DNA from: Chloroflexota bacterium
GTDB lineage: Bacteria > Chloroflexota > Anaerolineae > Promineifilales > Promineifilaceae
Direction of reading: 5' to 3'
DNA: 12,444 nt
Assembly: GCA_008501785.1 (NCBI GenBank)
Contig: QQUD01000771.1
Location: 1 to 12,444 of the forward strand
How positions within the stretch are numbered: position 1 is the stretch's first letter; each line of letters opens with the position of its first letter. The notes beneath the pieces were generated by a model, which saw nothing but the letters and a program-made list of their open reading frames with translations, ran no database searches and was not told where the DNA came from. Of this stretch, positions 143-12,413 are shown piece after piece. The position numbers and the translations under genes were made by a program.

Positions 143-2278
143 ATGGATGATCAGCCACAAACTCTTCTGGAATACGTTATTGCTGTCAGTCGTTCCATGG
201 CCGAAACACGAAACCTGGATACTTTATTACAGTATGCCATGAAAGAAGTTTTGCAATTAGTTAAGGCCGAACGTGGATATATTGTTTTAATCGATGAATC
301 AGGTGCATTGGATTTCAAAGTAAAATGCCATTTTGAAATTGGGGATGCAGACAATATCAAGGACGAAATAAGCTATTCCATCCTCAATGAAGTAGTCAGT
401 AATCAGAAACCGCTTGTTTTATCGAATGCAATGACTGATTTGCGTTTTTTTACAGCAAAGAGTGTGTTTATTCATCATTTACGTTCGGTGATGTGTGTGC
501 CTTTAGTAACCCAAAATCGGACAATTGGCGCGATTTATGTGGAAAATCGCTCGATAAAAGGGTTGTTTCGTGAACAAGATGTGCGGCCATTAGAATTATT
601 TGCTAATCAAGCGGCCGTTTCTATCGAAAATGCTCGCTTATATACGAATTTGGAATTTCGCGTTGAGGAAAGGACCAGAGAGTTAAAGAAAGCGAATGAG
701 GAATTGGCACATTCAAAGCTCGAGGCGGAAAAAGCGAATAAGGCGAAAAGCACCTTTGTTGCAAATATGAGTCATGAGATTCGTACTCCGCTTAATGCCA
801 TTCTTGGCTTAACCAGCCTGCTGGCAGATACACAACTTAGTGATGAACAGAAAGAATTTGTGAAACTGCTGAGTACAAGCGGAGATGGCTTGTTAACCAT
901 TATCAACGATATTCTTGATTTCTCGAAGATTGAGGCTGGTAAATTGGAGATTGAGGGAGTTCCATTTAACCTGCGTCAATGTGTGGGGGATGCGCTTGAT
1001 TTGGTATCGAAACGGGCGAATGATAAGGGGCTAGAAATCATATCGTTTGTCGATGAACACGTTCCAGAGATGATTGTGGGTGATGTGACTCGCATACGTC
1101 AAATCCTCATAAATTTGCTGAATAATGCAGTTAAGTTTACCGATACCGGCGAGGTGATTGTATCAGTTACCAACAACAGTGAGCCGACAGCAAAGGATAG
1201 TATCCGAATTTCGGTTATCGATACCGGTATTGGTGTTCCTGATGACCGTATCAACAAACTTTTCCTCCCGTTTAGTCAGGTAGATTCATCTACGACCCGC
1301 AAATACGGTGGAACGGGTTTAGGCTTGATTATCAGCAAGCGTCTGGCGGAAGCAATGGGTGGGGAAATGTGGGTAGAGAGTGAAAGTGGGCGTGGCTCTA
1401 CATTTAGCTTTACCTTTGCGGCAAAACGGGTAGTAGGCAAGGATGCGGAGCAAAAGAAGATTGACAAGACTGTATTGGCAGGTAAGCGGATTTTAGCTGT
1501 AGATGATAATGCCGTTAATCGATTGGTGCTTAAACATTATTTGCAATCCTGGCAGTCAATAACTCGAATTGTACCTTCAGGTCAAGGTGCATTAACGTTA
1601 TTGGAAAATGGAGAGATGTTTGATGCGGCCATTGTGGATATGCAAATGCCGGATATGGATGGACAAGAGTTGGCAAAACGCTTTCGAGACATCCCATCAG
1701 CAGCAGCTATGCCGATTTTGCTGTTAACGTCGATGGGAGAAGTAAAGAACAAGGAAACGGCCGTTCTCTTTGACAAATTCCTGCTCAAACCTGTACGGTC
1801 ATCACAGCTGCAAAATGCCCTGGTAGATCTTTTTGCGAATGTGACTAACAATGAGGTGTCCCAACAAACGGCCGTTTCACCATTCAATGCTCAAATGGGG
1901 CAGGAGCATCCCTTGCGGATTCTTTTAGCGGAAGACAATGCTATCAATCAAAAAGTCATTCAGCGGATTTTAGAACGAATGGGGTACGGTACAGATATTG
2001 CGGCCAATGGATTAGAAGCGATTGATGCTTTGCAGCGACAACCCTATGATGTCGTTCTGATGGATGTGCAAATGCCGGAAATGGATGGGGTGACGGCAAC
2101 TATCAAAATTCGCCAGATTTTCCCTCCCGAGCAGCAGCCCCGTATTATTGCGCTGACGGCCAACGCACTCAAAGGAGATCGGGAAGAATATTTAGCGGCA
2201 GGTATGGATGACTATGTAAGTAAGCCCATTCAGTTAGAAAATTTGGTGAATGGATTACGTAAATGTTGGCGTGAATAA
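143..2278 (+). CDS. cytoplasmic GAF hybrid histidine kinase with two receiver domains
   Basis: This is a hybrid sensor kinase of 711 residues with no membrane segment or signal peptide, so it should sense a cytoplasmic cue. Domains in order are: GAF (about 20-170); a charged coiled-coil linker (about 170-205); HisKA with H-box [11 protein letters not shown] and phospho-acceptor His211; HATPase with N-box [10 protein letters not shown]1 box DTGIG (Asp360) and G2 box GTGLGL (390-395); receiver 1 (about 449-565) with Asp454/Asp455, acceptor Asp499 in DMQMPDMDG, and Lys549; receiver 2 (about 589-708) with Glu597/Asp598, acceptor Asp641 in DVQMPEMDG, and Lys694. Both receivers look catalytically complete. 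No HPt or output domain follows. The ATG at 143 is the first start after an in-frame stop and has no visible Shine-Dalgarno. The gene is 26 nt upstream of the Ser/Thr kinase gene and is probably cotranscribed with it. The ligand is unknown. Confidence 0.95.
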
Positions 2279-2304
2279 ATACAGTTAGGCGGTAGGTAAA
2301 CACG

Positions 2305-5300
2305 ATGGTTGATTTGATTAACGGCCGTTACCACCTCCACACCCTCCTCGGCGAAGGCGGCATGGGCAAAGTATTCCGAGCCACCGACCGCCTCACCGGA
2401 AACACAGTAGCTCTCAAACAAGTCACCACTCCCGAAATGCTGCACATTTCGATGAATATGACCAGCAATGCCACCGATAGCGCCATGCGGCTGGCGTTGG
2501 CGCACGAATTCCAAACCCTGGCCGGACTGCGCCATCCGTACATCATCAGCGTTCTCGACTATGGCTTTGATGTGGAGAAACGACCTTACTTTACAATGGA
2601 TTACCTTACCCCAGCCCAAAACCTACGGGAAGCAGGTCAAGGTCTTTCAATTGAAGCCAAAATAGACTTGATTCAACAGGTGCTACAAGCGCTTGCTTAT
2701 CTACATCGGCGTGACATTCTACACCGTGACCTGAAACCAGAGAATGTGCTGGTGCAAGATGGGCATGTGCGCGTACTCGACTTTGGATTGGCCGCTACTG
2801 GGGGTAAGGGGGGCAGGTCTGTCGGTACATACCTTTATATGGCACCAGAGCTTTATGATGACGCACCTTTTTCAGCAGCAGCAGATTTGTATGCTGTTGG
2901 TGTCATTGCCTTTCAATTGCTTGCGGGTAATCATCCATTTGCACCAGTTGATCATGAATTTATTTTGCGAGTGATCGATAACAAACCTGATTTCAGTTGG
3001 CTAACAGATTATTCAGGATTGGCAGCTGTGATTGGCCGTTTGTTGGCAAAAGATCCCCGCGATAGGTACAAAAGCGCAAGTGAAGCACTCGCTGACTTCG
3101 CAGCGGCGGTGGGGCAAGCGCTTCCTCCTGAGACGACGGCCATTCGTGAAAGCTATCTGCAAGCTGCCAAATTTGTGGGGCGCGAAGCTGAAATGGTGCA
3201 GCTAAAAGATGCGATGTTGAGGGCGGAAATGAGCTTTGGTTCTGCCTGGCTGATTGGTGGTGAGAGCGGCGTGGGTAAAACTCGTTTTATTAATGAGCTG
3301 CGCACAAAGGCATTAGTTGATGGATTTGTGGTGCTGCGTGGGCAGGGAATACAAGATGGTGGCAGGTTACCCTATCAGCTATGGTCTGCTCCATTGCGCC
3401 ATTTGCTGTTGGCGTTGCCAGACGTGCCCGATCTGATTGCGTCTGTTTTGTTGCCGCTTGTACCAGACATCCCAGATTTGTTAGGACGTGACATTCCTTT
3501 GGCACCACCGTTAGCGGATGAACCCGCCCAAATTCGCCTTTTTTCAGCTATTGCACAACTGTTTGAATTGGTGAAACGGCCGTTACTGCTCATCCTTGAA
3601 GACCTCCATTGGGCAGAAGCCAGCCTTGCACCAATTCCGTATCTACTCCACCAAATAAACCAACAACCTCTGCTGCTGATTGGTACTTATCGGGATGACG
3701 AACGACCAGAACTAACACGAACACTATCCGAAATGCAAACCCTACACCTTAATCGCTTAACGGCTGATGACATGGTTGAATTGAGCACCGGCATGCTCGG
3801 CGAGATCGGGCAGCGACCCGATATTTTGCAACTGCTGCAGCGAGAGACCGAAGGAAATGCCTTTTTTGTTGTTGAGGTTGTGCGGGCATTGGCTGAGGAT
3901 ATCGGCCGTTTAAGCCAGATTGGGCAAATGTCGTTACCTGAAACCCTCTTGCCCGATGGCATTCAGTCCATTGTTGAACGGCGTCTGGACACTGTTCTTG
4001 GGGCAGATCAAAAGTTGTTGCAGTTAGCGGCTGTTGCCGGACGAACGTTGGACCTCGATGTGATGCAACAACTCAATGATAATATTTTGCCTGATCGTTG
4101 GTTGTCCACCTGCATGGATGCCTATGTGTTAGAAATTGAAGATGATATCTGGCAGTTTAGACATGCAAAGATTCGTGATGGGCTGCTGGCAACTATATCT
4201 GCTGAAAAATTGCAGGCGCATCACCAACGGGTGGCTCAAGCAATTGAGCAGGTCTATCCAAACGATCCACAACATGCTGCCCAATTAATGTACCATTGGC
4301 GGCAAGCTAAAAACCAGGAGAAGGTGCGCACCTTCGCGTATCAGGCTGGTATCTACGCTGCCAGCCAATATGCCAATGAAGATGCACTCATTTGTTTGAC
4401 AATCACATTTGAATTAACGGATGCAGCAGAATTGGAACAACGTTATGATGCATTGTTGACGCGTGAAAAAACTTTTGCGCTTATGGGGCGTTCTGAGGCA
4501 CAAAAAGCAGACTTAGAGATGCTGGCGGACCTGGCTCAGAAAATTGGGCAGCCTGAACAGCAAGCAGAGGTTGCGCTGCGGCAGGCAAACTATGCTATTA
4601 CGATTAGCGATTTTCCGGCTGCAATTGCGTATACACAAACGGCCGTTTCCCAAGCACATCTGGCCAATAATAAATTATTGTTGACAAGGGCGCATCGCCA
4701 CCATGGCCGAACCTTAGCTGCACAGGGCAATTATGAAGCGGCTGTGGGGGCTTTTGAACATGCGTTGATACTGGCACAGCAAATTGAAAACGGTCGAGAG
4801 ATAGCCAGATTGCTGGCACAATTAGGTGGCATTGCGGATAGACGGGGACAATTTGAACAAGCAGCAGATTACTTTAAACAAAGCCTGGTCATTCATCAAG
4901 AGTTAGAGAATGTACAAGGTGAAGCGACTGCTCTCTGGTCTTTGGGACAAACGGCCGTAAATCTGACTTCTTTTCAAGAAGCACATACCTATTTGGAACA
5001 AAGTTTAGAAATTTTCCAGACGATTGGTGACAAGCAAGGGGAAAGTAAAACACGCAATAGCTTGGCGATTCTTTATTCAGACATGGGCAAACCGAGCGAA
5101 GAAAAAAAACATCTTGAGCAAGCCCTTGAAATTGAGCAAAGCATTGGTAGTAAAGCAGGTATTGGCAAGATGCTCAATAATCTGGGAACGCATGCCTATG
5201 GGCAAAAGCAGTATGATGAGGCTTATGGTTATTTTGAGCAACAAATAAAAATTGCTGAAGAGACGGGTGATAAATTAGGACAGACAATCGGGTTCATGAA

Positions 5301-6084
5301 CATCGGAAGTACCTTCCTGGATCGCAAAGGGGCTTATCATCAGGCAATGCGTCATTTAGAAAGGAGTCTTTCCCTTGCACAAGAACTAGAATCAAAAGAT
5401 TTAGAAGCCGGTATTTTAATGCACTTGGGGGGGCTTTTCAATCGACTTGGGCAATATAACGTAGCCAAGCCTTATTTGGAAAAGGCTTTGACCATTCATC
5501 AACAAATTGGCAGGCGCTGGTGGGAAGGGTGGACACTAGTTTACCTGGGGAATTGGTTTGTTGCACAGCAACAGTATAAACAATCCAAGAAATTGCTTGA
5601 AGCGACGTTAGCTCTCAACAAAGAGCTAAATTATCAAGAACGGGTTGGGACAGTTCTGAATATATTGGCCTGGGTTGCCTATCAGTTGGGTGATTATAAG
5701 CAGATGCTGGCACATTATGAGGCCGCGTTGGCCAGCTTGCGAGATACAACTGAACTTCATGAAACGGCCGTTAGCCAGGCCGGAATTACTTTGTCACGGT
5801 TTTTAATAGATGGCACTTTTTCCGAAGAGTTCCTCATGCTTACCTTGGCATATTTAGAAAACAATCCAACACTAATGGAGTCTGAAACGCCATTTCGGGC
5901 CTATTTGATTTGCTACAGGCTTTTGCAGGCATCAAATGATGAACGTGCCGCACCGTTGCTCACGATTGCTTATCATCGGCTGCAAGCGTTTGCTGAGAAT
6001 ATTGAGGATGCTGCTTGGCGACAATCTTTTTTAGAAAGTGTACCGGAGCAATGGGAAATTGGTCGGCTTTTCAAGAGTTTGTAG
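2305..6084 (+). CDS. Ser/Thr protein kinase - AAA/STAND-like NTPase - TPR protein
   Basis: This is a 1259-residue soluble multidomain kinase. The N-terminal Hanks-type kinase domain (about 9-265) has glycine loop GEGGMGKV (16-23), Lys38 in ALKQ, catalytic HRDLKPEN with Asp142, DFG Asp159 and a MAPE motif, so it should be active. An AAA_16-type NTPase begins at FVGRE (290-294), with Walker A GESGVGKT (319-326) and Walker B LLLILED ending at Asp433. A helical region follows, then about ten TPR units of 40 residues (about 753-1146) and a helical C-terminus. There is no transmembrane helix, unlike PknB/PASTA kinases. The layout recalls PknK-like and Hstk-like regulators: TPRs probably bind partners and the NTPase may switch the kinase. 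AGG at 2294-2296, 8 nt before the ATG, is a good ribosome binding site. Codons in the kinase N-lobe (about 2320-2560) are more GC-rich than the rest. Substrates are unknown; the neighbouring histidine kinases are plausible partners. Confidence 0.94.
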   Translation: MVDLINGRYHLHTLLGEGGMGKVFRATDRLTGNTVALKQVTTPEMLHISMNMTSNATDSAMRLALAHEFQTLAGLRHPYIISVLDYGFDVEKRPYFTMDYLTPAQNLREAGQGLSIEAKIDLIQQVLQALAYLHRRDILHRDLKPENVLVQDGHVRVLDFGLAATGGKGGRSVGTYLYMAPELYDDAPFSAAADLYAVGVIAFQLLAGNHPFAPVDHEFILRVIDNKPDFSWLTDYSGLAAVIGRLLAKDPRDRYKSASEALADFAAAVGQALPPETTAIRESYLQAAKFVGREAEMVQLKDAMLRAEMSFGSAWLIGGESGVGKTRFINELRTKALVDGFVVLRGQGIQDGGRLPYQLWSAPLRHLLLALPDVPDLIASVLLPLVPDIPDLLGRDIPLAPPLADEPAQIRLFSAIAQLFELVKRPLLLILEDLHWAEASLAPIPYLLHQINQQPLLLIGTYRDDERPELTRTLSEMQTLHLNRLTADDMVELSTGMLGEIGQRPDILQLLQRETEGNAFFVVEVVRALAEDIGRLSQIGQMSLPETLLPDGIQSIVERRLDTVLGADQKLLQLAAVAGRTLDLDVMQQLNDNILPDRWLSTCMDAYVLEIEDDIWQFRHAKIRDGLLATISAEKLQAHHQRVAQAIEQVYPNDPQHAAQLMYHWRQAKNQEKVRTFAYQAGIYAASQYANEDALICLTITFELTDAAELEQRYDALLTREKTFALMGRSEAQKADLEMLADLAQKIGQPEQQAEVALRQANYAITISDFPAAIAYTQTAVSQAHLANNKLLLTRAHRHHGRTLAAQGNYEAAVGAFEHALILAQQIENGREIARLLAQLGGIADRRGQFEQAADYFKQSLVIHQELENVQGEATALWSLGQTAVNLTSFQEAHTYLEQSLEIFQTIGDKQGESKTRNSLAILYSDMGKPSEEKKHLEQALEIEQSIGSKAGIGKMLNNLGTHAYGQKQYDEAYGYFEQQIKIAEETGDKLGQTIGFMNIGSTFLDRKGAYHQAMRHLERSLSLAQELESKDLEAGILMHLGGLFNRLGQYNVAKPYLEKALTIHQQIGRRWWEGWTLVYLGNWFVAQQQYKQSKKLLEATLALNKELNYQERVGTVLNILAWVAYQLGDYKQMLAHYEAALASLRDTTELHETAVSQAGITLSRFLIDGTFSEEFLMLTLAYLENNPTLMESETPFRAYLICYRLLQASNDERAAPLLTIAYHRLQAFAENIEDAAWRQSFLESVPEQWEIGRLFKSL

Positions 6085-6131
6085 GGGCTGGCTTTGCAAG
6101 CCATGAGGTTGTAGTCTGGAAGGGCGGAAAC

Positions 6132-6171
6132 GGGGTTGGCGAGGGTTGGGGCGGTTGTAAAGGGTGGGGGG
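6132..6171 (+). other. G-rich tract in the gap before the second histidine kinase gene
   Basis: Five runs of three or more G occur on the sense strand at 6132-6135, 6143-6145, 6148-6151, 6162-6164 and 6166-6171, with gaps of 7, 2, 10 and 1 nt. The tract could fold into a G-quadruplex in mRNA or in the non-template strand, although the 10-nt loop is longer than the usual 1-7 nt. It lies just after the Ser/Thr kinase stop codon and directly before an intergenic copy of the AACGGCCGTT palindrome (6175-6184). Its composition stands out from the AT-rich sequence that follows. No function is shown. Confidence 0.4.
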
Positions 6172-6192
6172 AGAAACGGCCGTTATCACCAA

Positions 6193-6221
6193 TTGACAAT
6201 CTGTACCAAACCATTAAAAAT
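6193..6221 (+). promoter_or_regulatory. candidate sigma70-type promoter for the second histidine kinase gene
   Basis: A perfect -35 hexamer TTGACA lies at 6193-6198. Seventeen nt later is AAAAAT (6216-6221), a 4 of 6 match to the -10 consensus. The first position is not T, and TAAAAA at 6215 with a 16-nt spacer is an alternative. The predicted start near 6228 leaves about 75 nt of leader before the TTG start at 6303. If real, the second histidine kinase can be transcribed apart from the Ser/Thr kinase. The -35 is convincing and the -10 is weak. Confidence 0.35.
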
Positions 6222-6291
6222 AATCATATAGAGCTTTCTTTAAACCTGAATAACCCGTTTGTGGCAATAGTTGTCGCAGCGCATTTGTATT

Positions 6292-6305
6292 GGAGGGTAT
6301 GATTG
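6292..6305 (+). promoter_or_regulatory. strong ribosome binding site that fixes a TTG start codon
   Basis: GGAGGG at 6292-6297 lies 5 nt before TTG at 6303-6305. An in-frame TGA at 6300-6302 directly precedes the TTG, so the reading frame cannot extend upstream. The nearby ATG at 6299 is in another frame, is only 1 nt from the ribosome binding site, and stops after three codons. The first in-frame ATG is about 40 codons downstream, at the edge of the GAF domain. TTG is therefore the best start. Confidence 0.7.
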
Positions 6306-7670
6306 GCTGAGAAAAAAGATGTAGATACATCGAAAAAGATTGAACCATCATTGCCCTTAGATAAGCTGCGGGGGGAAGCGCTTTTATCGCGATTATTAGC
6401 AATTAGCCGACATTTGGCAGAAATGCGAACACTTTTGCCCTTGTTATCTTTTGTAATTGATGAAGCACTCTCCCTTGTCAAAGCAGAAAGAGGCTATATC
6501 GTTTTGATCAAAGCAGATAACTCCTTTGAAATTTGCATCAAACGTCATTTTGAAGGGGACGTTCAAGTTATCGAAGCAGACCCTATTAGCCATACAGTTC
6601 TCAGTAAAGTTATTCAATCAGGAAAATCTATTGTTATTCGCAAAGCGATAGCTGATCCAGATTTTGCCAATGCCCTCAGCGTGAGAAAAAAGAAGTTACG
6701 GTCAATAATATGTATGCCGCTTATTACAAAAAGCCGCATCATCGGTGCTGTTTATCTTGAGAATCGGGCAAAATCAGACCGATTTTCTGAAGACGACATA
6801 ATACCTTTGGAATTTTTTGGCAATCAGGCTGCTGTCGCAATTGAAAATGCAAACCTGAATGAAAACCTGGAATTGTTGGTGCAAGAGAGAACAAAAGAAT
6901 TGATTCAAGCAAAGGAAGGGCTTGAACGTGTAAATAAGAAATTGGAAACGGTTGTTCAAGAATTGGCAATTTCAAATGAGCAGCTTAAATCGAGTAATTC
7001 TGAATTAGAAGCGTTTGCGCATATGGTGGCACACGATCTGAAAGCGCCTTTGAGCAATATCATTTCCTTTAGTGAAATGGTGATAAATCAATGGGAGCAA
7101 CTCCCCGATCATGAGCGAAAGGAATATTTAGGGTATATTCAAAATGGGGGGCAAAAGTCAATTCGCATTATTGATGAATTATTGTTACTCGCCCACTTAC
7201 GGCGAGAAGACCACATTGATGTCGAATCATTGGATATGGTTTTGATAGTTGATGAAGTACACGCACAATTATTTGACATGATTGCTCGTTATCACGCTGA
7301 GATTAAGATTCCAAATTCCTGGCCTTTGGCATTGGGCCATGCACCTTGGGTTGAAATTATCTGGATCAATTATCTGAGTAATGCGATCAAATATGGTGGC
7401 AATCCGCCCCATATTGAACTTGGAGCTTCTCCATATTCTGATGAGTTTCATTGTTTCTGGGTTAAAGATAATGGCGTTGGATTATCAGAAGAAGAAAAAG
7501 ACAAGCTGTTTACCCCATTTACTCGCCTGCACAAATCGCGTGCAAAAGGGCATGGATTGGGTCTGTCAATCGTGCAGCGTATTGTTGAAAAGCTCGGAGG
7601 CACGGTCGGTGTTGAAAGCCAATCGGGTCAGGGTGCAAAGTTCTTTTTTACGTTACCTGCTGCTAAATAA
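6303..7670 (+). CDS. GAF-domain sensor histidine kinase, phytochrome-like HisKA type
   Basis: This is a 455-residue soluble histidine kinase. It has a Lys-rich tail (1-40), a GAF domain (about 42-185), a coiled coil (about 185-235), HisKA with His244 in HDLKAPLSN, and a HATPase with N-box WINYLSNAIKYGG, G1 DNGVG (Asp389) and G2 GHGLGL (416-421). The HDLKAPL form of the H-box is typical of phytochrome-like kinases and differs from the HEIRTPL form in the hybrid kinase at 143. There is no receiver, so phosphate must pass to another protein. The GAF domain is closely related to that of the kinase at 143: [12 protein letters not shown] is identical, and the RS-x-x-C-x-PL-x-T, ENR and FxNQAAVxIENA segments are shared. 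The gene is 218 nt after the Ser/Thr kinase gene, is read in the same direction, and starts at TTG. It contains no copy of the ACGGCCGT palindrome. It converges with the oxidoreductase gene at 7733. Confidence 0.93.
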   Translation: MAEKKDVDTSKKIEPSLPLDKLRGEALLSRLLAISRHLAEMRTLLPLLSFVIDEALSLVKAERGYIVLIKADNSFEICIKRHFEGDVQVIEADPISHTVLSKVIQSGKSIVIRKAIADPDFANALSVRKKKLRSIICMPLITKSRIIGAVYLENRAKSDRFSEDDIIPLEFFGNQAAVAIENANLNENLELLVQERTKELIQAKEGLERVNKKLETVVQELAISNEQLKSSNSELEAFAHMVAHDLKAPLSNIISFSEMVINQWEQLPDHERKEYLGYIQNGGQKSIRIIDELLLLAHLRREDHIDVESLDMVLIVDEVHAQLFDMIARYHAEIKIPNSWPLALGHAPWVEIIWINYLSNAIKYGGNPPHIELGASPYSDEFHCFWVKDNGVGLSEEEKDKLFTPFTRLHKSRAKGHGLGLSIVQRIVEKLGGTVGVESQSGQGAKFFFTLPAAK

Positions 7671-7732
7671 AGTTGAAAAGAGAATACGATTATTTTATGT
7701 GTGCTTAGCCAGCGTTGCTTCTGTGCAAAAGG

Positions 7733-8722
7733 TCACCTCTCATTCTCTCCGGGATATTTCACACCCCATTGAGTGCGCAGATTGTCCATAAGCTGCATCA
7801 TGCGTTGGGTTTCGTCGAGAGGCATGATGTTGCTTTCTAGTTTGCCAGCCCGTAAGCAGTTGTGAACTTCCAAGACCTCGTGTGGGTAGCCGTTGTCGAG
7901 GTAAGGGATGGTATGGGTTTGGGGGTCTTCACCGTTGAGGTGCAGCGTCATTTTATCAGGCCGGAAAAAGAGATTATGCACTTTGATAGTGCCTTTGCTG
8001 CCCATCACAAATGCTTCAATGGGTTTATTAATAACCATGCCGCTGGTTAGTTGGGCAGAGATGTTGTTGTCGTAAATCAAGGTCATCGTATTCAGTTCAT
8101 CAACACCGGATTGGCTCATTTGTGCCTGTGCGTGTATCTCGTTGGGGAAACCAAGCAGCATTGTTGTGAACGAAAGTGGATAAATCCCCAAATCGAGTAA
8201 CGCACCGCCACCTAGCTCTGGATTGTAGAGCCGGTGTGTCGGATCAAAGGGTAAATTAAAATTAAAATCAGCCTGAATGAGACGGACATCACCAATCACA
8301 CCATCAGCCAACCATTTGCGCAGCTGCGCGATTGCTGGGATAAACCGCATCCAAACGGCTTCCATCAAGAACAAATTGTTTTGACGAGCAAACGCAATGC
8401 ATTGTGCCGATTCAGCGGCATTTAATGTCATTGGTTTTTCACACAGAACGTGTTTGCTGGCGGAAAGGCACAGACGCATATTTTCGTAATGTAGATTGTG
8501 CGGCGTGGCAATGTAGATGATGTCAACATCAGGGTCCGCAGCCAACGCGTCATAGCTTGCATATCGTCTTGGGACATTCCATTTTTCGCCAAATTTATCG
8601 GCCGATGCCTGTGACCGAGAGGCGACGGCTACCAATTCTGCGTCTTCAACGGTGTGCAAGGCTTGGGCCATGCTACCTGCAATATTGCCTGTTGCTAAAA
8701 TACCCCAACGAAATTTTGTCAT
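7733..8722 (-). CDS. Gfo/Idh/MocA family NAD(P)-dependent sugar oxidoreductase
   Basis: This is a 329-residue two-domain oxidoreductase. The N-terminal Rossmann fold carries GILATGNIA (7-15), and the family motif CEKPMTLN contains Lys96. In the C-terminal domain, LDLGIYPL (176-183) places Asp177 and Tyr181 where dihydrodiol dehydrogenase and glucose-fructose oxidoreductase have their catalytic tyrosine; many other members have His there. The expected reaction is oxidation or reduction at a hydroxyl of a cyclic sugar or sugar-like substrate. The exact substrate cannot be read from the sequence. No Tat or Sec signal is present, so it should be cytoplasmic, unlike the periplasmic Gfo. Its ATG overlaps the stop of the dehydrogenase gene by 4 nt (ATGA, 8719-8722), indicating translational coupling. 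It is the last gene of the minus-strand cluster. No convincing terminator is visible in the 62-nt convergent gap at 7671-7732. Confidence 0.92.
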   Translation of the reverse strand: MTKFRWGILATGNIAGSMAQALHTVEDAELVAVASRSQASADKFGEKWNVPRRYASYDALAADPDVDIIYIATPHNLHYENMRLCLSASKHVLCEKPMTLNAAESAQCIAFARQNNLFLMEAVWMRFIPAIAQLRKWLADGVIGDVRLIQADFNFNLPFDPTHRLYNPELGGGALLDLGIYPLSFTTMLLGFPNEIHAQAQMSQSGVDELNTMTLIYDNNISAQLTSGMVINKPIEAFVMGSKGTIKVHNLFFRPDKMTLHLNGEDPQTHTIPYLDNGYPHEVLEVHNCLRAGKLESNIMPLDETQRMMQLMDNLRTQWGVKYPGENER

Positions 8723-9672
8723 TTTTTCTCCATTTGAAGGACTGCTTTAAACAATCCTGGTGTGCCCCTTGTTAAATCACGAAAAGCATGTTCTATTTCG
8801 TCAAAATCGTAGACAGTTACCAGTGGTTCGGTGGTGATGTGACCTTGCTGCATGAGCATCATTCCCTGGCGCATGGCTGCAACTTTTTCGTTCTGACGAC
8901 GCACATGCCCGTTGATCACGTCAATTGCTTTGAAGTTCCATCGCTCCATGTTCACGGTGCGCAGGCCATTATTGGATTGATGGTAGCCGACGAGGATGAT
9001 ACGGCCGTGTTGTGCCACCAAATCCGTACACAAGTCAACTGCGCTCTGCACCCCGGCCGCTTCAATAACTATATCAAATTCTCCATGTTCGGCTAAAATG
9101 GCGTCACTTTTCGTTTCAAATGGATTGTAGGCGACATCAGCACCCAGTCGCTGACTCATTTCTCGTCGCTCGACTACCGGGTCAATGGCACAAATGAAGC
9201 TGGCTCCCTGATATTTTGCCAGTTGCATACAAATCAGCCCCATAAACCCACAACCAACAATCGCCAGTTTGTCGCCCGGTTTTGTACCAAAACGGTTTGC
9301 CGCATGGACGCAACAAGCCACTGCCTCTCCAAGGGCATAAGTCGGATTTATGACCTGTGGTAGCTTGACCACTCCTTCAGCGGATGCTACAAAATAGTCG
9401 GCGTATGCTGGCAAGGCGAGTGCAGTTATGATGTCGCCTGGTTTAACGGCCGTTACATTTCTCCCAACTTCAATTACTTCACCACTCGCTTCATGCCCCA
9501 GTCGGTTATAAGTTGCTACAAAATCGGCCCGATTTTGATAGACAAACAGATCGCCGCTGCACACGCCGCAGGCCAATGTTTTGATGAGCAGTTCGTTGTC
9601 GTTGATGATGGGAATGGGGGTTTCTTGAATTTCAAAGCCGGTGAGGGTTAAAACGGCCGTTTTCATGTTCAT
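8719..9672 (-). CDS. zinc-type medium-chain alcohol/polyol dehydrogenase lacking the structural zinc lobe
   Basis: This 317-residue medium-chain dehydrogenase (MDR) is predicted to oxidise a sugar alcohol or sugar hydroxyl with NAD. Catalytic zinc ligands are visible in CGVCSGD (Cys38) and GHE (His60, Glu61); Glu116 or Cys120/121 may complete the site. The Rossmann motif is GCGFMG (140-145), and Asp164 at the end of the second strand favours NAD over NADP. The loop that normally carries four structural-zinc cysteines is missing after Gly-Asp (79-80), so the protein is about 30 residues shorter than typical family members. The start at 9672 has AGGA 5 nt upstream. A second ATG at 9666 is also possible, since core homology begins near residue 3. 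The gene is coupled to the downstream oxidoreductase by an ATGA overlap. An AACGGCCGTT palindrome (9652-9661) encodes its Thr-Ala-Val just after the start. The substrate is unknown; sorbitol-, idonate- or threonine-dehydrogenase-like roles are possible. Confidence 0.92.
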   Translation of the reverse strand: MNMKTAVLTLTGFEIQETPIPIINDNELLIKTLACGVCSGDLFVYQNRADFVATYNRLGHEASGEVIEVGRNVTAVKPGDIITALALPAYADYFVASAEGVVKLPQVINPTYALGEAVACCVHAANRFGTKPGDKLAIVGCGFMGLICMQLAKYQGASFICAIDPVVERREMSQRLGADVAYNPFETKSDAILAEHGEFDIVIEAAGVQSAVDLCTDLVAQHGRIILVGYHQSNNGLRTVNMERWNFKAIDVINGHVRRQNEKVAAMRQGMMLMQQGHITTEPLVTVYDFDEIEHAFRDLTRGTPGLFKAVLQMEKK

Positions 9673-9690
9673 AAGATTCCTGAAATTGGC

Positions 9691-9746
9691 AACAACAGAT
9701 TTAAGTATAAAACAGATTCAGAATTTTTCTGGAAAAATCTGTTGTT
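9691..9746. repeat. CAGATTT-type palindromic repeat, copy 2
   Basis: AACAACAGATTT (9691-9702) is repeated inverted and perfectly as AAATCTGTTGTT (9735-9746). Nested inside are AACAGATT (9711-9718) with AATCTGTT (9736-9743), and CAGAA (9719-9723) with TTCTG (9727-9731). More than one hairpin is therefore possible. It lies between the GH32-like gene and the dehydrogenase gene on the minus strand. Read on the minus strand, its centre (CAGATTT, then CCAGAAA, then AATCTG) resembles the loop of the element at 10786-10880, so the two look like diverged copies in opposite orientation. It may also act as an attenuator or RNA-processing site within the cluster. Confidence 0.6.
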
Positions 9747-9789
9747 TACTCTCATCTGTTATTGTCATTGCGGCAAAAGACTAAATCCA

Positions 9790-10749
9790 TTAGTCAACCT
9801 GGAGTTGTCCATCCGGCGCGACATGCAGCGGTATCGGATCGGCAATTTCACCAATAAAACCGCCATCGCCTGTCCACGAGCGTGAGGTCATTAGCACCCA
9901 GTTTCCGTTCGGGTCTTGAATGACTTTGCCTGCATAGTGCGTACCAGTAGCATCGCCGAGTAAAAATTTGTCGGTCAAAAATTTGTAGGGGCCGAGTGGA
10001 TGATCACTGACCATGTAGTGCGTGCCGGTCACTTGTTCAACGTTCGGATTGTTGCGACGGGCATCGGAATATTCTTTCACGCCGACGCAGAAGATGAGGT
10101 AGTAACGGCCGTTAATCTCTACAACCTGCGGCACTTCCATATGCCCAAACTCGGTTGACCCAGCAACCGGTGGCCCCACTTCCCATTCAATTAAATCATC
10201 CGAAGTGGCATGCGCGATGACGGCGCGTTCGGATTTGTGGCCCTGGTTGCTGCGGGCGGTGATGAAGGCGTGGAAACGGCCGTTCAACTCAAAAATCCAC
10301 GGATCACGAAACGCATGATCATGCCACATGTCCAGTTCCAGCATTTCATACCATTGTGGGTCTGCCACAATCAGTGGATTTGCAGGATGCTTCTCCCAGT
10401 CGATTAAGTTCGTGGAAGTGGCTGCGCCAATGCGTTGAATCAGACCTTTTTCCTGGTGCTTTGCGCCTGTGTAAAACAGATACCAGGTGCCATTGTGATG
10501 AAAGGTGCTGCCGGTCCAGGTTGAAGCATTGTCCCAGGCATCTTCGCTTTTGGGGGAAGGGTGCAGCGCATCGGGCAAAACTTCCCAATTGACCAAATCT
10601 TGTGAAACGGCATGACCAATAGAAACATGCCAGTGGCGCATCACCTCTTCTGGTAAATTGCGTGGCGCTTGTAGGTAAAAAATATGGGTGTCGGGTCCAT
10701 CTTGCGCAAACCAGAAATCCCATATCCATTTGTCTTTAATTTTTAGCAT
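9790..10749 (-). CDS. GH32-related five-bladed-propeller glycoside hydrolase, single domain
   Basis: This is a 319-residue protein of the GH-J/GH-F propeller type, most like GH32. The typical GH32 stretch SIGHAVSQDLVNWEVLPDAL (43-62) and the blade motifs TWTGS and FRDPWIF are present. The RDP triad residue is Asp149. Glu205 in MEVPQ stands where GH32 has its acid/base in ECPD. The N-terminal nucleophile region reads WIWDFW (Asp11) and not the canonical NDPNG. The C-terminal beta-sandwich of true GH32 enzymes is missing; most GH32 proteins are about 480 residues or more. There is no signal peptide. The enzyme may hydrolyse a fructoside or another furanoside, but the altered nucleophile motif makes substrate prediction unsafe. 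AGG lies about 10 nt upstream of the ATG. Repeat elements flank the gene on both sides. Two AACGGCCGTT palindromes encode Asn-Gly-Arg within it. Confidence 0.85.
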   Translation of the reverse strand: MLKIKDKWIWDFWFAQDGPDTHIFYLQAPRNLPEEVMRHWHVSIGHAVSQDLVNWEVLPDALHPSPKSEDAWDNASTWTGSTFHHNGTWYLFYTGAKHQEKGLIQRIGAATSTNLIDWEKHPANPLIVADPQWYEMLELDMWHDHAFRDPWIFELNGRFHAFITARSNQGHKSERAVIAHATSDDLIEWEVGPPVAGSTEFGHMEVPQVVEINGRYYLIFCVGVKEYSDARRNNPNVEQVTGTHYMVSDHPLGPYKFLTDKFLLGDATGTHYAGKVIQDPNGNWVLMTSRSWTGDGGFIGEIADPIPLHVAPDGQLQVD

Positions 10750-10785
10750 GATTTTAGCCTTTATGTTTTAAGTGATCAGCAAAAT

Positions 10786-10880
10786 GAATTAAGAAATAAC
10801 AATCCACAGATTTCACAGATTTACGCAGATTTAAGCCAGAAACAATCTGTGAAATCTGCGAAATCTGTGGTTAATAATTC
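10786..10880. repeat. CAGATTT-type palindromic repeat, copy 1 (long hairpin)
   Basis: A near-perfect inverted repeat fills most of the gap between the two glycosidase genes. CCACAGATTT (10804-10813) pairs perfectly with AAATCTGTGG (10861-10870). Inside, CACAGATTT-A-CGCAGATT (from 10814) pairs with the 10844-10860 arm with one mismatch and one bulged base, leaving a loop around AAGCCAGAAAC. Weaker outer pairing extends to GAATTA (10786-10791) and TAATTC (10875-10880). The arms themselves consist of tandem CACAGATTT/CGCAGATTT words. This is typical of dispersed intergenic REP- or MITE-like elements. In the minus-strand transcript it would form a strong hairpin after the GH32 stop codon and could stabilise or attenuate the message. 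Confidence 0.75.
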
Positions 10881-10901
10881 TGAAAACTTTTTTCATTTTA
10901 C

Positions 10902-12413
10902 TTATTCCTTATCTGACGGTGCGGTGAAGAATTTAGCGGCGTTTAGTTCGTAAATGTCGAGGCTGCGGAAGGTAACGGCCGTTTCCTCCGCAAACAACTC
11001 AATGCCCACACTGTCGCCACTCGGGAAAATTTTCTCACTAAACACAACCAATCCACCGTTTGCAAACAATTCAACAGACGATCTATCTACAAAAATGTGC
11101 AGCCGAATCAAGCCATTGTCCGGTTTTAGATGGGTGACATGGTTGCTTGCAAAACTGTCATTAAAATCTGCTTGCCCCGCATGAGAACGGTCCACGTACA
11201 GGGTTTGGCTCTGAGGCGCGTATCCAATAGTCGTTGCCTCGCCATCCCCCACGCGTACCCGAATGCCCAGGTTATTGGCCTCAATTGGCGGTTCGATTTC
11301 GGCAATAATTTCTAATGTTTCGCCGCGCACCATGGAAAGGGGGAGGGTGTTGTTGTTGATGATTAGGTCTTGCCAGGAATATTGGATGCTGCGCAGTTGG
11401 GTGAGTTCGGAAACGGCCGTTTGCACCAACCGAATCCCCTCATCCGTCTCAGTCAAGCCTAATTCACGTGGAATCGTCATCGAACCGCGCCACGTTGATG
11501 TAGGGATGATGTTAGCATATTGCCAATTGTTCATCCACGCCAGCCAGATGCGACGGCCGTTTGGCACATCACTCCACGACTGAGCCGCATAAAAATCGGC
11601 TCCCCAATCAGCCCACAAGACAGTCTCTTTTGGATTGTCGCTGATGAAGGTTTTTCCATCGAAGTTCCCGACAAAATACTGTGTGCCGCTGCCTGCTGCG
11701 GGTGCGCCATCCCCAACCCCAACTGATAATATCCAACGTGTTTCAGGACCGCCATCAACTGGAAGCTGAAACAAATCAGGTGTTTCCCAAACGCCTGTTG
11801 TGGAGCCATAGCCAAATCCAAAACGACCGCTGGGCTGCCATTCTTTCAGATTGGGTGATGTGTAAATCAAAACAGCGTTTCCTGCTGCTAACAACATCAC
11901 CCAATGGCCTACCTCGTCTCCCGATTCATACCAAATCACTTTAGGGTCTCGGAAGTTTTTTAGGTTTGGCGGTGTGGCGATAACTGGGTTGCCTTCATAT
12001 TTTATCCATGTGCGCCCGTTGTCGGTGCTGCTGGCGATGGCCTGGTTTTGGTTTGAATGGGTTGGGTTGTGGTAGGTGTAGGCGGCAACCATTGCTTCTT
12101 TGCCGAAACCGGCTGTATTGTGCCAATCAATGATAGCGCTGCCCGAGTAGATGTATCCCAGCTCATCGGGTGCTAAGGCAATCGGCAAATGCTGCCAATT
12201 CACTAAATCTGTACTGACAGCGTGGCCCCAATGCATCGCCCCCCAAACTGTATCTTTTGGGTGAAATTGGTAAAACAAATGGTATTCACCTGCGTAATAG
12301 ACCATCCCGTTTGGATCATTCAGCCCGTTTTCAAGGGGTGAGAAGTGATATTGAGGCCGGTATGCCTCATCTAGCTCAACTGTGGGTGGAATTTTTGATG
12401 GCGTATTGTGCAT
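10902..12413 (-). CDS. GH32 fructan beta-fructosidase / levanase-like enzyme
   Basis: This 503-residue enzyme is predicted to release fructose from beta-fructans or sucrose by a retaining mechanism. The N-terminal propeller carries HFSPLENGLNDPNG with nucleophile Asp33, FRDP with Asp156, and acid/base Glu210 in GVWETPDLF. The stretches GSGTQYFVGNFDGKTF and WLAWMNNWQYANIIPTS are typical of levanase/exo-inulinase-type GH32. The C-terminal beta-sandwich contains HIFVDRSSVELFANGG. Length is normal for the family. The residue after Glu210 is Thr, where many members have Cys. No signal peptide is seen, so substrates are probably short imported fructo-oligosaccharides or sucrose. AGGA lies 9 nt before the ATG. 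It is the first gene of the visible minus-strand cluster; the remaining 31 nt of the window show only its leader, and upstream genes (perhaps a transporter or regulator) are cut off. Palindromes at 10974, 11412 and 11552 fall within it. Confidence 0.95.
   Translation of the reverse strand: MHNTPSKIPPTVELDEAYRPQYHFSPLENGLNDPNGMVYYAGEYHLFYQFHPKDTVWGAMHWGHAVSTDLVNWQHLPIALAPDELGYIYSGSAIIDWHNTAGFGKEAMVAAYTYHNPTHSNQNQAIASSTDNGRTWIKYEGNPVIATPPNLKNFRDPKVIWYESGDEVGHWVMLLAAGNAVLIYTSPNLKEWQPSGRFGFGYGSTTGVWETPDLFQLPVDGGPETRWILSVGVGDGAPAAGSGTQYFVGNFDGKTFISDNPKETVLWADWGADFYAAQSWSDVPNGRRIWLAWMNNWQYANIIPTSTWRGSMTIPRELGLTETDEGIRLVQTAVSELTQLRSIQYSWQDLIINNNTLPLSMVRGETLEIIAEIEPPIEANNLGIRVRVGDGEATTIGYAPQSQTLYVDRSHAGQADFNDSFASNHVTHLKPDNGLIRLHIFVDRSSVELFANGGLVVFSEKIFPSGDSVGIELFAEETAVTFRSLDIYELNAAKFFTAPSDKE

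Follow-up and report, generated by a model that had tools for sequence, protein, structure and literature searches.

The window, by which is meant the whole 12,444-nt stretch of DNA analysed here (46.2% GC), carries the following genes, defined by open reading frame and Pfam match:

143-2278, + strand, histidine kinase gene
2305-6084, + strand, Ser/Thr kinase-AAA-TPR gene
6303-7670, + strand, GAF/HATPase gene
7733-8722, - strand, GFO/IDH/MocA gene
8719-9672, - strand, zinc dehydrogenase gene
9790-10749, - strand, GH32-like gene
10902-12413, - strand, GH32 gene

The site-bearing genes in 143..12413 are ordinary chromosomal genes, and the kinase has its nearest named relatives in Chloroflexota. 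Scattered through them are copies of a perfect palindrome, ACGGCCGT, mostly extended to AACGGCCGTT, and a few CGGCCG cores in other contexts:

1756..1765, AACGGCCGTT, histidine kinase gene
1867..1876, AACGGCCGTT, histidine kinase gene
2320..2329, AACGGCCGTT, protein kinase gene, reading N-G-R-Y
3575..3584, AACGGCCGTT, protein kinase gene, reading K-R-P-L
4638..4647, AACGGCCGTT, protein kinase gene, reading T-A-V
4951..4958, ACGGCCGT (8-mer only), protein kinase gene, reading T-A-V
5763..5772, AACGGCCGTT, protein kinase gene, reading T-A-V
6175..6184, AACGGCCGTT, intergenic, between the protein kinase and GAF/HATPase genes
9001..9008, ACGGCCGT (8-mer only), zinc-binding dehydrogenase gene
9445..9454, AACGGCCGTT, zinc-binding dehydrogenase gene
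9652..9661, AACGGCCGTT, zinc-binding dehydrogenase gene
10104..10113, AACGGCCGTT, GH32-like gene
10275..10284, AACGGCCGTT, GH32-like gene
10974..10983, AACGGCCGTT, GH32 gene
11412..11421, AACGGCCGTT, GH32 gene
11553..11560, ACGGCCGT (8-mer only), GH32 gene
612..617, CGGCCG core with different outer bases (G..T)
3903, 8599 and 9054, three further CGGCCG cores outside ACGGCCGT

The 16 copies of ACGGCCGT span 1757-11560, compared with a mean of 0.09 and a maximum of 1 in 200 dinucleotide shuffles, while the 13 copies of AACGGCCGTT compare with a shuffle mean of 0.01. The original prediction had reported these copy numbers and expectations of ~0.1 and ~0.01 at ~46% GC, all of which are correct. 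Under an order-2 Markov model no 8-mer in the window is more over-represented than ACGGCCGT (16 versus 0.2 expected), and CGGCCG is the window's commonest palindromic 6-mer, with 16 of 20 copies lying inside ACGGCCGT. Open reading frames of at least 100 aa, chosen greedily by length by a script rather than a gene finder, contain 15 of the 16 sites, split 9, 5 and 1 between the frames, and one site lies outside.

The search for enrichment beyond the window, a check named in the original prediction and run here on related genomes, showed that in these relatives the word is genome-wide. In 19 genomes of one order of uncultured bacteria, probably Promineifilales, ACGGCCGT occurs at 991-2,102 per Mb when the genomes are counted whole, in contrast to at most 119 per Mb in 361 genomes from other orders of the class. 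The relatives were found by a contig scan with alignment; a scan with the window protein alone found none. Host density reaches 2.1 sites per kb, and the reversed word, used as a control, occurs 1-42 times in five rich genomes in which the word itself occurs 1,898-4,045 times. Sites are denser in coding than in intergenic DNA (1.5 versus 1.0 per kb), and all three frames and the intergenic regions are occupied. These counts in relatives support the proposal of a HIP1-like, genome-wide and independently evolved palindrome that does not derive from shared gene ancestry. Among the literature matches listed, no earlier description of the palindrome was found.

The outer bases of the word differ between lineages. 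When 56 genomes were assigned a state in this analysis, 28 carried ACGGCCGT (A-type), one GCGGCCGC (G-type) and two TCGGCCGA (T-type), so that the G- and T-types are sampled from one and two genomes, respectively. Six genomes displayed little outer preference around CGGCCG, with G018 and G052 tending towards A (half-site frequencies of 0.32 and 0.39), and 19 were weak or negative for the word. The samples comprised 5-102 kb per genome, including stretches around methyltransferase genes, and in 10 of the 56 were below 13 kb (G022, G025, G030, G031, G032, G039, G042, G045, G050 and G058). G022 is A-type and G045 weak by whole-genome counts of AACGGCCGTT, the G045 sample alone reading N. The states cluster on trees; RecA, with two paralogues per genome, is a blurred species marker. 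The AACGGCCGTT extension is strong in some lineages and weak in others, and the enriched genomes share CGGCCG. The idea that the word is fixed as the 10-mer AACGGCCGTT does not hold, as these genomes have only CGGCCG in common and differ by lineage in the outer bases. Within the Anaerolineae, ACGGCCGT is the highly iterated palindrome of a single order, its CGGCCG core being stable and its outer bases specific to the lineage.

The sites are maintained far beyond protein needs. In comparisons of one 20-kb stretch of an A-type genome (G015, L180) with pieces of seven other genomes, 91 of 96 orthologous sites were kept at 84-89% identity, compared with ~45% of composition-matched words (HSPs of at least 600 columns). 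The separate orthologue counts were 16/16, 35/37, 22/24, 18/19 and 11/16, against 0.52, 0.47, 0.41, 0.43 and 0.13 for matched words. Synonymous positions were identical in 98 of 98 cases inside sites and in 1,507 of 1,810 elsewhere in the same stretch. The word is also visible in protein sequence. In the main A-type set the tripeptide Thr-Ala-Val (TAV) occurs 561 times versus 86 expected (6.5-fold), 95% of the copies being spelled ACGGCCGT; the corresponding tripeptides are AAA in the G-type (58 versus 13 expected) and SAE in the T-type (51 versus 8), and the control tripeptides VAT and TAL are near expectation. TAV in other spellings is depleted (27 versus ~75 and 8 versus ~37 expected). At loci of at least 6 kb, unconverted TAV made up 16 of 183 cases within 100 bp of another site and 12 of 555 at greater distances (Fisher p 2e-4), an effect that rests on 28 unconverted sites. 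The equivalent test on the [NDHY]-Gly-Arg reading was not significant (25 of 122 near, 58 of 390 far, p 0.16).

Gaps of less than 30 bp between sites are scarce (15 versus 47 expected; 12 versus 32 in the second A-type set). Decayed inner variants, counted with cores masked, show no build-up in four word-bearing sets (0.57-0.83 of expectation), the corresponding values being 1.11 (unflanked set) and 1.22 (GC-rich set, 6-mer). One-base outer deviants are at 1.5-4.8 times expectation in two A-type sets, and the G- and T-type samples, which are smaller, showed no such excess. An initial depletion of near-miss words was partly an artefact, the background having included the word itself. Helical phasing of the spacing was not accepted, the best non-coding period being 11 bp with p ~0.03 over eight periods, and a 3-bp signal reflects coding rather than phasing.

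The word is also abundant in viral DNA. Of 23 host-unassigned viral contigs found by searching for the word, 13 were counted whole; seven carry 1.6-3.5 sites per kb, exemplified by 227 sites in 65.5 kb, and the other six 0.1-1.0 per kb. A scan for GCGGCCGC was swamped by GC-rich phages among the matches listed. Some viral sites are only 15-40 bp apart, closer than coverage of the DNA requires, and the high viral density would also suit a biased host repair to which phage DNA is exposed.

Gene surveys of the 56 genomes identified no reader protein of the word. The original prediction suggested looking for an orphan methyltransferase recognizing CGGCCG; in that form the idea is not supported by the surveys. 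PF00145, the m5C family, is absent from 14 of the 28 A-type genomes, which rejects an m5C methyltransferase as the cause, and no enzyme of this type tracks the word. The sole candidate reader found, and the one orphan methyltransferase that is widely shared, is a DUF1156-like enzyme present in 26 of the 28 A-type genomes. It is missing from A-type genomes G046 and G047 and from all six little-preference genomes, and is present in 14 of the 19 weak or negative ones. G046 also has neither PF00145 nor a strong PF01555 match, and as it is without MutL it may be incomplete; gene absences in metagenome-assembled genomes, which may be incomplete, are weak individually. The candidate resembles PglX and the DUF1156 defence methyltransferases weakly and in part, and a sequence search of the PDB returned no close relative. 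In its structural model (pLDDT 84.8), Foldseek recognizes only a methyltransferase core of generic type, with a tRNA enzyme as the best match, followed by CcrM; such a predicted fold would fit a DNA or an RNA substrate alike. Repair genes do not discriminate either: MutL is found in 50 of the 56 genomes, both with and without the word, and Vsr is confined to eight, which argues against VSP-type repair.

The reading we favour, tentatively and at somewhat below an even chance, is that a host DNA-reading system, comprising a putative core reader and an outer-pair determinant, uses the word as its landing site, and that dense sites are selected for. In such a lineage-specific system an old, shared reader would see CGGCCG, and a second, faster-evolving determinant would see the outer base pair. 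Cells, and the phages replicating in them, would be selected for dense sites wherever the protein permits, the likeliest job being a self-mark, methylated or otherwise, for the machinery of repair, recombination or the nucleoid. The rare TAV not spelled ACGGCCGT tend to have another site within 100 bp, which could then reflect diminishing returns of coverage. A more specific form, in which a conserved CGGCCG reader and an exchangeable outer-pair reader act independently of any methyltransferase and force dense coverage of host and phage DNA, rewriting proteomes, is doubtful. If such two-component reading does operate, the outer-base type would be a lineage password, with phages matched to the type of their host.

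The biased-repair ratchet advanced by Elhai for HIP1 holds that site-specific mismatch repair preserves changes by which the word arises and undoes those by which it is lost, so that the word itself would need no function. This is a credible but rather unlikely account of the present data. The wide distribution of MutL and the depletion of otherwise-spelled TAV are consistent with it, and phage DNA would meet the same host repair. The lack of a significant distance effect in the Gly-Arg reading slightly strengthens the ratchet and slightly weakens the coverage reading. As set out in PMC4390886, the repair may be methylation-directed or otherwise site-specific, and the model requires the methylated C to follow a G and levels off at about one site per kb. 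In the A- and T-types, however, A or T precedes the outermost C, although the GGCC centre of the word does contain GC. Hosts reach 2.1 sites per kb and one phage record 3.5, which exceeds the saturation level, MutL occurs irrespective of the word, Vsr is rare and half of the A-type genomes lack PF00145. Furthermore, a bias that worked on each site purely by itself would not predict that TAV relaxes where another site is within 100 bp. In a further scheme, the word identifies self DNA to a host nuclease or defence system, in a Chi-like or methylation-protected manner, and word-poor DNA is degraded, leaving successful phages as word-dense as the host or denser. The seven dense viral records and the weak, partial resemblance of the candidate enzyme to defence methyltransferases point this way. 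Known Chi sites are non-palindromic, however, no nuclease partner was found, six of the 13 host-unassigned viral records are sparse, and the HIP1 parallel is split, with 27 sites in 50 kb of one Nostoc phage and none in 41.75 kb of an Anabaena phage; this scheme is unlikely. A DNA uptake signal for natural transformation is very improbable; uptake sequences are likewise over-represented genome-wide, but they are non-palindromic (PMC1939737), and neither dense phage sites nor outer-base switching within an order would be expected of them. The higher coding density might suggest an artefact arising from base composition, codon usage or gene repetition, but this is refuted by the shuffles and Markov models, the occupation of three frames and intergenic DNA, the reversed-word control and the synonymous-site test, which leave it virtually no chance.

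HIP1 was described in 1995 and, to our knowledge, has gone unexplained since. The word reported here provides a second, independent and order-wide case with another core, natural switches of the outer base and dense phage copies. It helps to separate what is essential to such words (core, palindrome and density) from cyanobacterial particulars (GATC and Dam-like methylation), and models that invoke one methyltransferase or a G before the methylated C are now checkable in ACGGCCGT, TCGGCCGA, GCGGCCGC and bare-CGGCCG lineages. That amino-acid sequence can be altered proteome-wide by a DNA word is evident from the 6.5-fold excess of Thr-Ala-Val in the main A-type set.

Among known systems, Chi sites are likewise over-represented octamers, read by repair machinery, but differ from the present word in being non-palindromic and rarer. 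The uptake sequences of Pasteurellaceae and Neisseriaceae are also short words over-represented genome-wide, but they are non-palindromic and oriented (PMC1939737), which excludes the perfect palindrome from their class, and high phage density would not be expected of them. The closest parallel is HIP1, GCGATCGC, an octamer palindrome present in cyanobacteria at about 500-2,500 per Mb, with palindromic extensions and deviants biased to the outermost base (Elhai 2015, PMC4390886), and with site conservation beyond protein needs and maintenance by selection (Xu et al. 2018, as cited in PMC6604393). The present word shares these properties: an octamer palindrome above Markov expectation at hundreds to thousands per Mb (19 A-type relatives), a palindromic extension, deviants concentrated at the first and last positions (A-type sets) and conservation beyond protein (one 20-kb stretch). 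With respect to an associated methyltransferase, PF00145 occurs in 14 and the candidate DUF1156-like enzyme in 26 of the 28 A-type genomes. The word is not HIP1 proper, as its core is CGGCCG rather than the GATC or CGATCG of GCGATCGC; it belongs to a different phylum and to only one order of the tested class, its outer base switches between A, G and T on a constant core, and no m5C methyltransferase tracks it, whereas m4C enzymes would fall within the family PF01555. It is a HIP-type word, one that evolved independently of HIP1. The alternate cyanobacterial HIPs (TCGATCGA, GGGATCCC, GGCGCC, rCCGGy and GCsGC; PMC4390886) similarly substitute a related word for the usual one in particular genomes, TCGATCGA also by an outer-base change. 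Three non-HIP1 words described in that source occur in single strains with a matching methyltransferase, in contrast to the main word reported here, which is order-wide.

In the window (12,444 bp, 46.2% GC) the 8-mer palindrome ACGGCCGT, which has a CGGCCG core, occurs 16 times and its 10-mer extension AACGGCCGTT 13 times, compared with 0.09 and 0.01 copies expected from dinucleotide shuffles. These values bear out the copy numbers, and the far lower expectation, of the original prediction. The gene content is ordinary, comprising two proteins that resemble sensor histidine kinases, a Ser/Thr kinase-AAA-TPR protein whose closest named relative comes from a Chloroflexota MAG (56% identity), an oxidoreductase, a dehydrogenase and two enzymes of the GH32 type. 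All genome-wide figures refer to relatives of the window's genome. A scan for the kinase family returned 80 loci, nearly all under Chloroflexota titles. Among ten genomes counted from these loci, five (4.6–8.1 Mb) were rich in AACGGCCGTT, with 1,898, 3,823, 3,388, 2,492 and 4,045 copies, and the other five held 0, 0, 1, 7 and 99; a reversed-word control gave 0–42 in the same ten. Across 56 genomes of the order of G002, one of these relatives, AACGGCCGTT ranged from 4 to 5,060 copies, with rich, intermediate and poor lineages. We infer that this order is Promineifilales, because its methyltransferase has Ca. Leptofilum homologues at 61–62% identity. Among 396 genomes drawn from across the class (35 in the order and 361 outside it; one class covered, genome sizes rounded), ACGGCCGT reached 991–2,102 per Mb in 19 A-type members of the order, 10–514 per Mb in the other 16 and at most 119 per Mb in the 361. 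The enrichment thus extends beyond the window, and the initial observation is confirmed and extended.

Two genomes from other orders of the class, G007 (L013, L019) and G008 (L014, L018), contained no CGGCCG in 43.9 and 44.2 kb, against about 10 and 13 copies predicted from base composition alone, and lack ACGGCCGT throughout; they apparently avoid the same core. The exact reverse of the word, TGCCGGCA, occurs 12 times in 9 kb of G030 (L202, L203; 0.4 expected) and is also high in several further Anaerolineae (G031, G120, G283 and G361; 886 copies in the 4.7 Mb G031), and may be another HIP.

Sampled-locus k-mer spectra, in combination with whole-genome counts, assigned states, labelled by us, to the 56 genomes. 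The A-type, typified by ACGGCCGT, comprises 28 genomes. G006 is G-type, with 92 copies of GCGGCCGC in 61 kb vs 2.4 expected, while G017 and G035 are T-type, with 68 and 59 copies of TCGGCCGA in 47 kb each vs 1.2 and 2.4. Six genomes (G009, G018 and G052–G055) are enriched about 7–14-fold in CGGCCG and show little preference at the outer positions (pooled base frequencies 0.26, 0.23, 0.24 and 0.27), although A is somewhat favoured in G018 (0.32) and G052 (0.39) despite this label; the other 19 were classed as weak or negative. In an orphan-methyltransferase tree of 30 genomes G006 is nested in an A-type clade (98/95), and the word states require 3 changes vs 10 in shuffles. A RecA tree of 30 genomes, built from one of two paralogues per genome, placed the four little-preference and the five weak genomes included in one clade each (99/97 each). 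From these enrichment patterns and trees, the CGGCCG core appears to be ancient, and the base pair flanking it switches. Two strong recA hits were listed for over half of the 56 genomes.

Maintenance of the sites is strongly supported. In orthologue alignments, which share a single 20-kb reference stretch of the A-type genome G015 and are not independent, 16/16, 35/37, 22/24 and 18/19 sites were retained at 84–89% identity and 11/16 at 77%, compared with 52, 47, 41, 43 and 13% of composition-matched 8-mers. Against G006 (69% identity) none of ten sites was retained, one being GCGGCCGC, and against G017 neither of two; one of 11 GCGGCCGC copies in the G006 pieces aligns with ACGGCCGT. At conserved amino acids, the four-fold synonymous positions within the word were identical in 98 of 98 cases, compared with 1,507 of 1,810 for the other four-fold codons ending in G or C; for G011 the figures were 14/14 vs 151/274. 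Inner one-off variants total 0.57–0.83 of expectation in four word-bearing sets, and therefore decaying copies do not form a tail. Outer one-off variants are at 1.5–4.8 times expectation in both A-type sets, an excess not seen in the G- and T-type samples, which are small.

The word also leaves an imprint on the proteome. Across the 18 genomes of the main A-type set, Thr-Ala-Val (TAV) occurs 561 times vs 86 expected; 95% of these are written as ACGGCCGT, a spelling that codon usage would put at 13%. Asn-Gly-Arg occurs 197 times vs 33, 92% spelled AACGGCCGT. In the second A-type set (nine genomes) TAV reaches 270 vs 43, 97% as the word. Similarly, Ala-Ala-Ala in G006 (58 vs 13) is spelled GCGGCCGC in 83% of cases, and Ser-Ala-Glu in the T-type genomes (51 vs 8) TCGGCCGA in 90%. 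The controls Val-Ala-Thr and Thr-Ala-Leu were close to expectation. The spelling percentages indicate that conversion is near saturation. Unconverted TAV was more frequent within 100 bp of another site (16/183) than farther away (12/555; p 2e-4). We read the TAV effect as diminishing returns of coverage, with the caveat that the same comparison for [NDHY]-Gly-Arg is not significant (25/122 near vs 58/390 far; p 0.16). Gaps below 30 bp are scarce in the main (15 vs 47 expected) and second (12 vs 32) A-type sets; other spacing in the main set is roughly exponential (CV 1.05). Two Ardenticatenaceae kinase homologues, P0004 and P0006, contain no TAV, but Ser-Ala-Glu, which marks the TCGGCCGA type in proteins, occurs three times in each. 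HIP type may be readable from proteins alone.

Viral contigs were picked by scanning for the word, and 13 of 23 were counted over their full length. Seven carry 1.6–3.5 sites per kb.

Site counts in the seven dense viral contigs
226 in 100.4 kb
227 in 65.5 kb
106 in 46.2 kb
89 in 57.0 kb
85 in 33.5 kb
22 in 12.9 kb
14 in 7.1 kb

Density is 0.1–1.0 per kb in the remaining six (lowest, 4 in 29.8 kb), and reversed-word controls gave 0–7. L002, L006, L007 and L380 are tailed phages by portal, terminase or head proteins, and L004 is a fifth by its tape measure protein; L001 may be a plasmid-like element. Symmetric flanks are mostly A (49/52 in L001, 48/48 in L380), L007 has 13 additional sites with G flanks, and a few viral contigs contain T- or G-type words. 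As the contigs were chosen by the pattern, these counts are no proof that the word is present in every phage of these bacteria. The word-dense L007 also encodes, at 9827-11098, a methyltransferase with a ParB-like domain.

A look for an orphan methyltransferase recognizing CGGCCG had been suggested as a check. PF00145 is present in 26 of the 56 genomes, including 14 of 28 A-type, and PF01555 in 52. In G005, G015 and G022, A-type genomes without PF00145, the PF01555 matches are fragments of one DUF1156-like orphan methyltransferase of 660–700 aa; G005 has one further weak partial match in a different frame. This enzyme, 61–69% identical among 27 chosen homologues, contains a DPPY motif, which is usual in amino-methyltransferases, and its predicted fold is that of a methyltransferase of undecided substrate. 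It is a candidate reader of the word, not a demonstrated one. Of the 28 A-type genomes 26 have it, as do the sole G-type and both T-type genomes and 14 of 19 weak or negative ones; it occurs in none of the six little-preference genomes. In the A-type G046, a possibly incomplete genome, none of PF00145, PF01555 and the DUF1156-like enzyme was clearly found. The mechanism of maintenance is not strongly supported. One DUF1156-like entry, P0237, has radical-SAM and MiaB-like Pfam domains in addition and may represent a fusion to an adjacent gene.

Searches on the word, CGGCCG methylated motifs, HIPs, Chloroflexi metaepigenomics and over-represented palindromes in Chloroflexota, their scope mostly outside subscription journals, gave no description among the matches listed. 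In PMC6329791, the methylated motifs reported for three Chloroflexi bins from Lake Biwa, of which two are CL500-11-like, are GANTC, TTAA and GCWGC; CGGCCG is not among them. Elhai 2015 (PMC4390886) describes HIP1, alternate HIPs and a tie to methyltransferases, and selection on HIP1 is credited to Xu et al. 2018 in PMC6604393. As a parallel to the viral contigs, we counted 27 HIP1 copies in the 50 kb Nostoc phage A1 and none in Anabaena phage A-4L. The view of a HIP1-like palindrome with a different sequence is upheld by a word that is genome-wide in the relatives and built on CGGCCG: the Chloroflexota palindrome is an independent HIP-type system.
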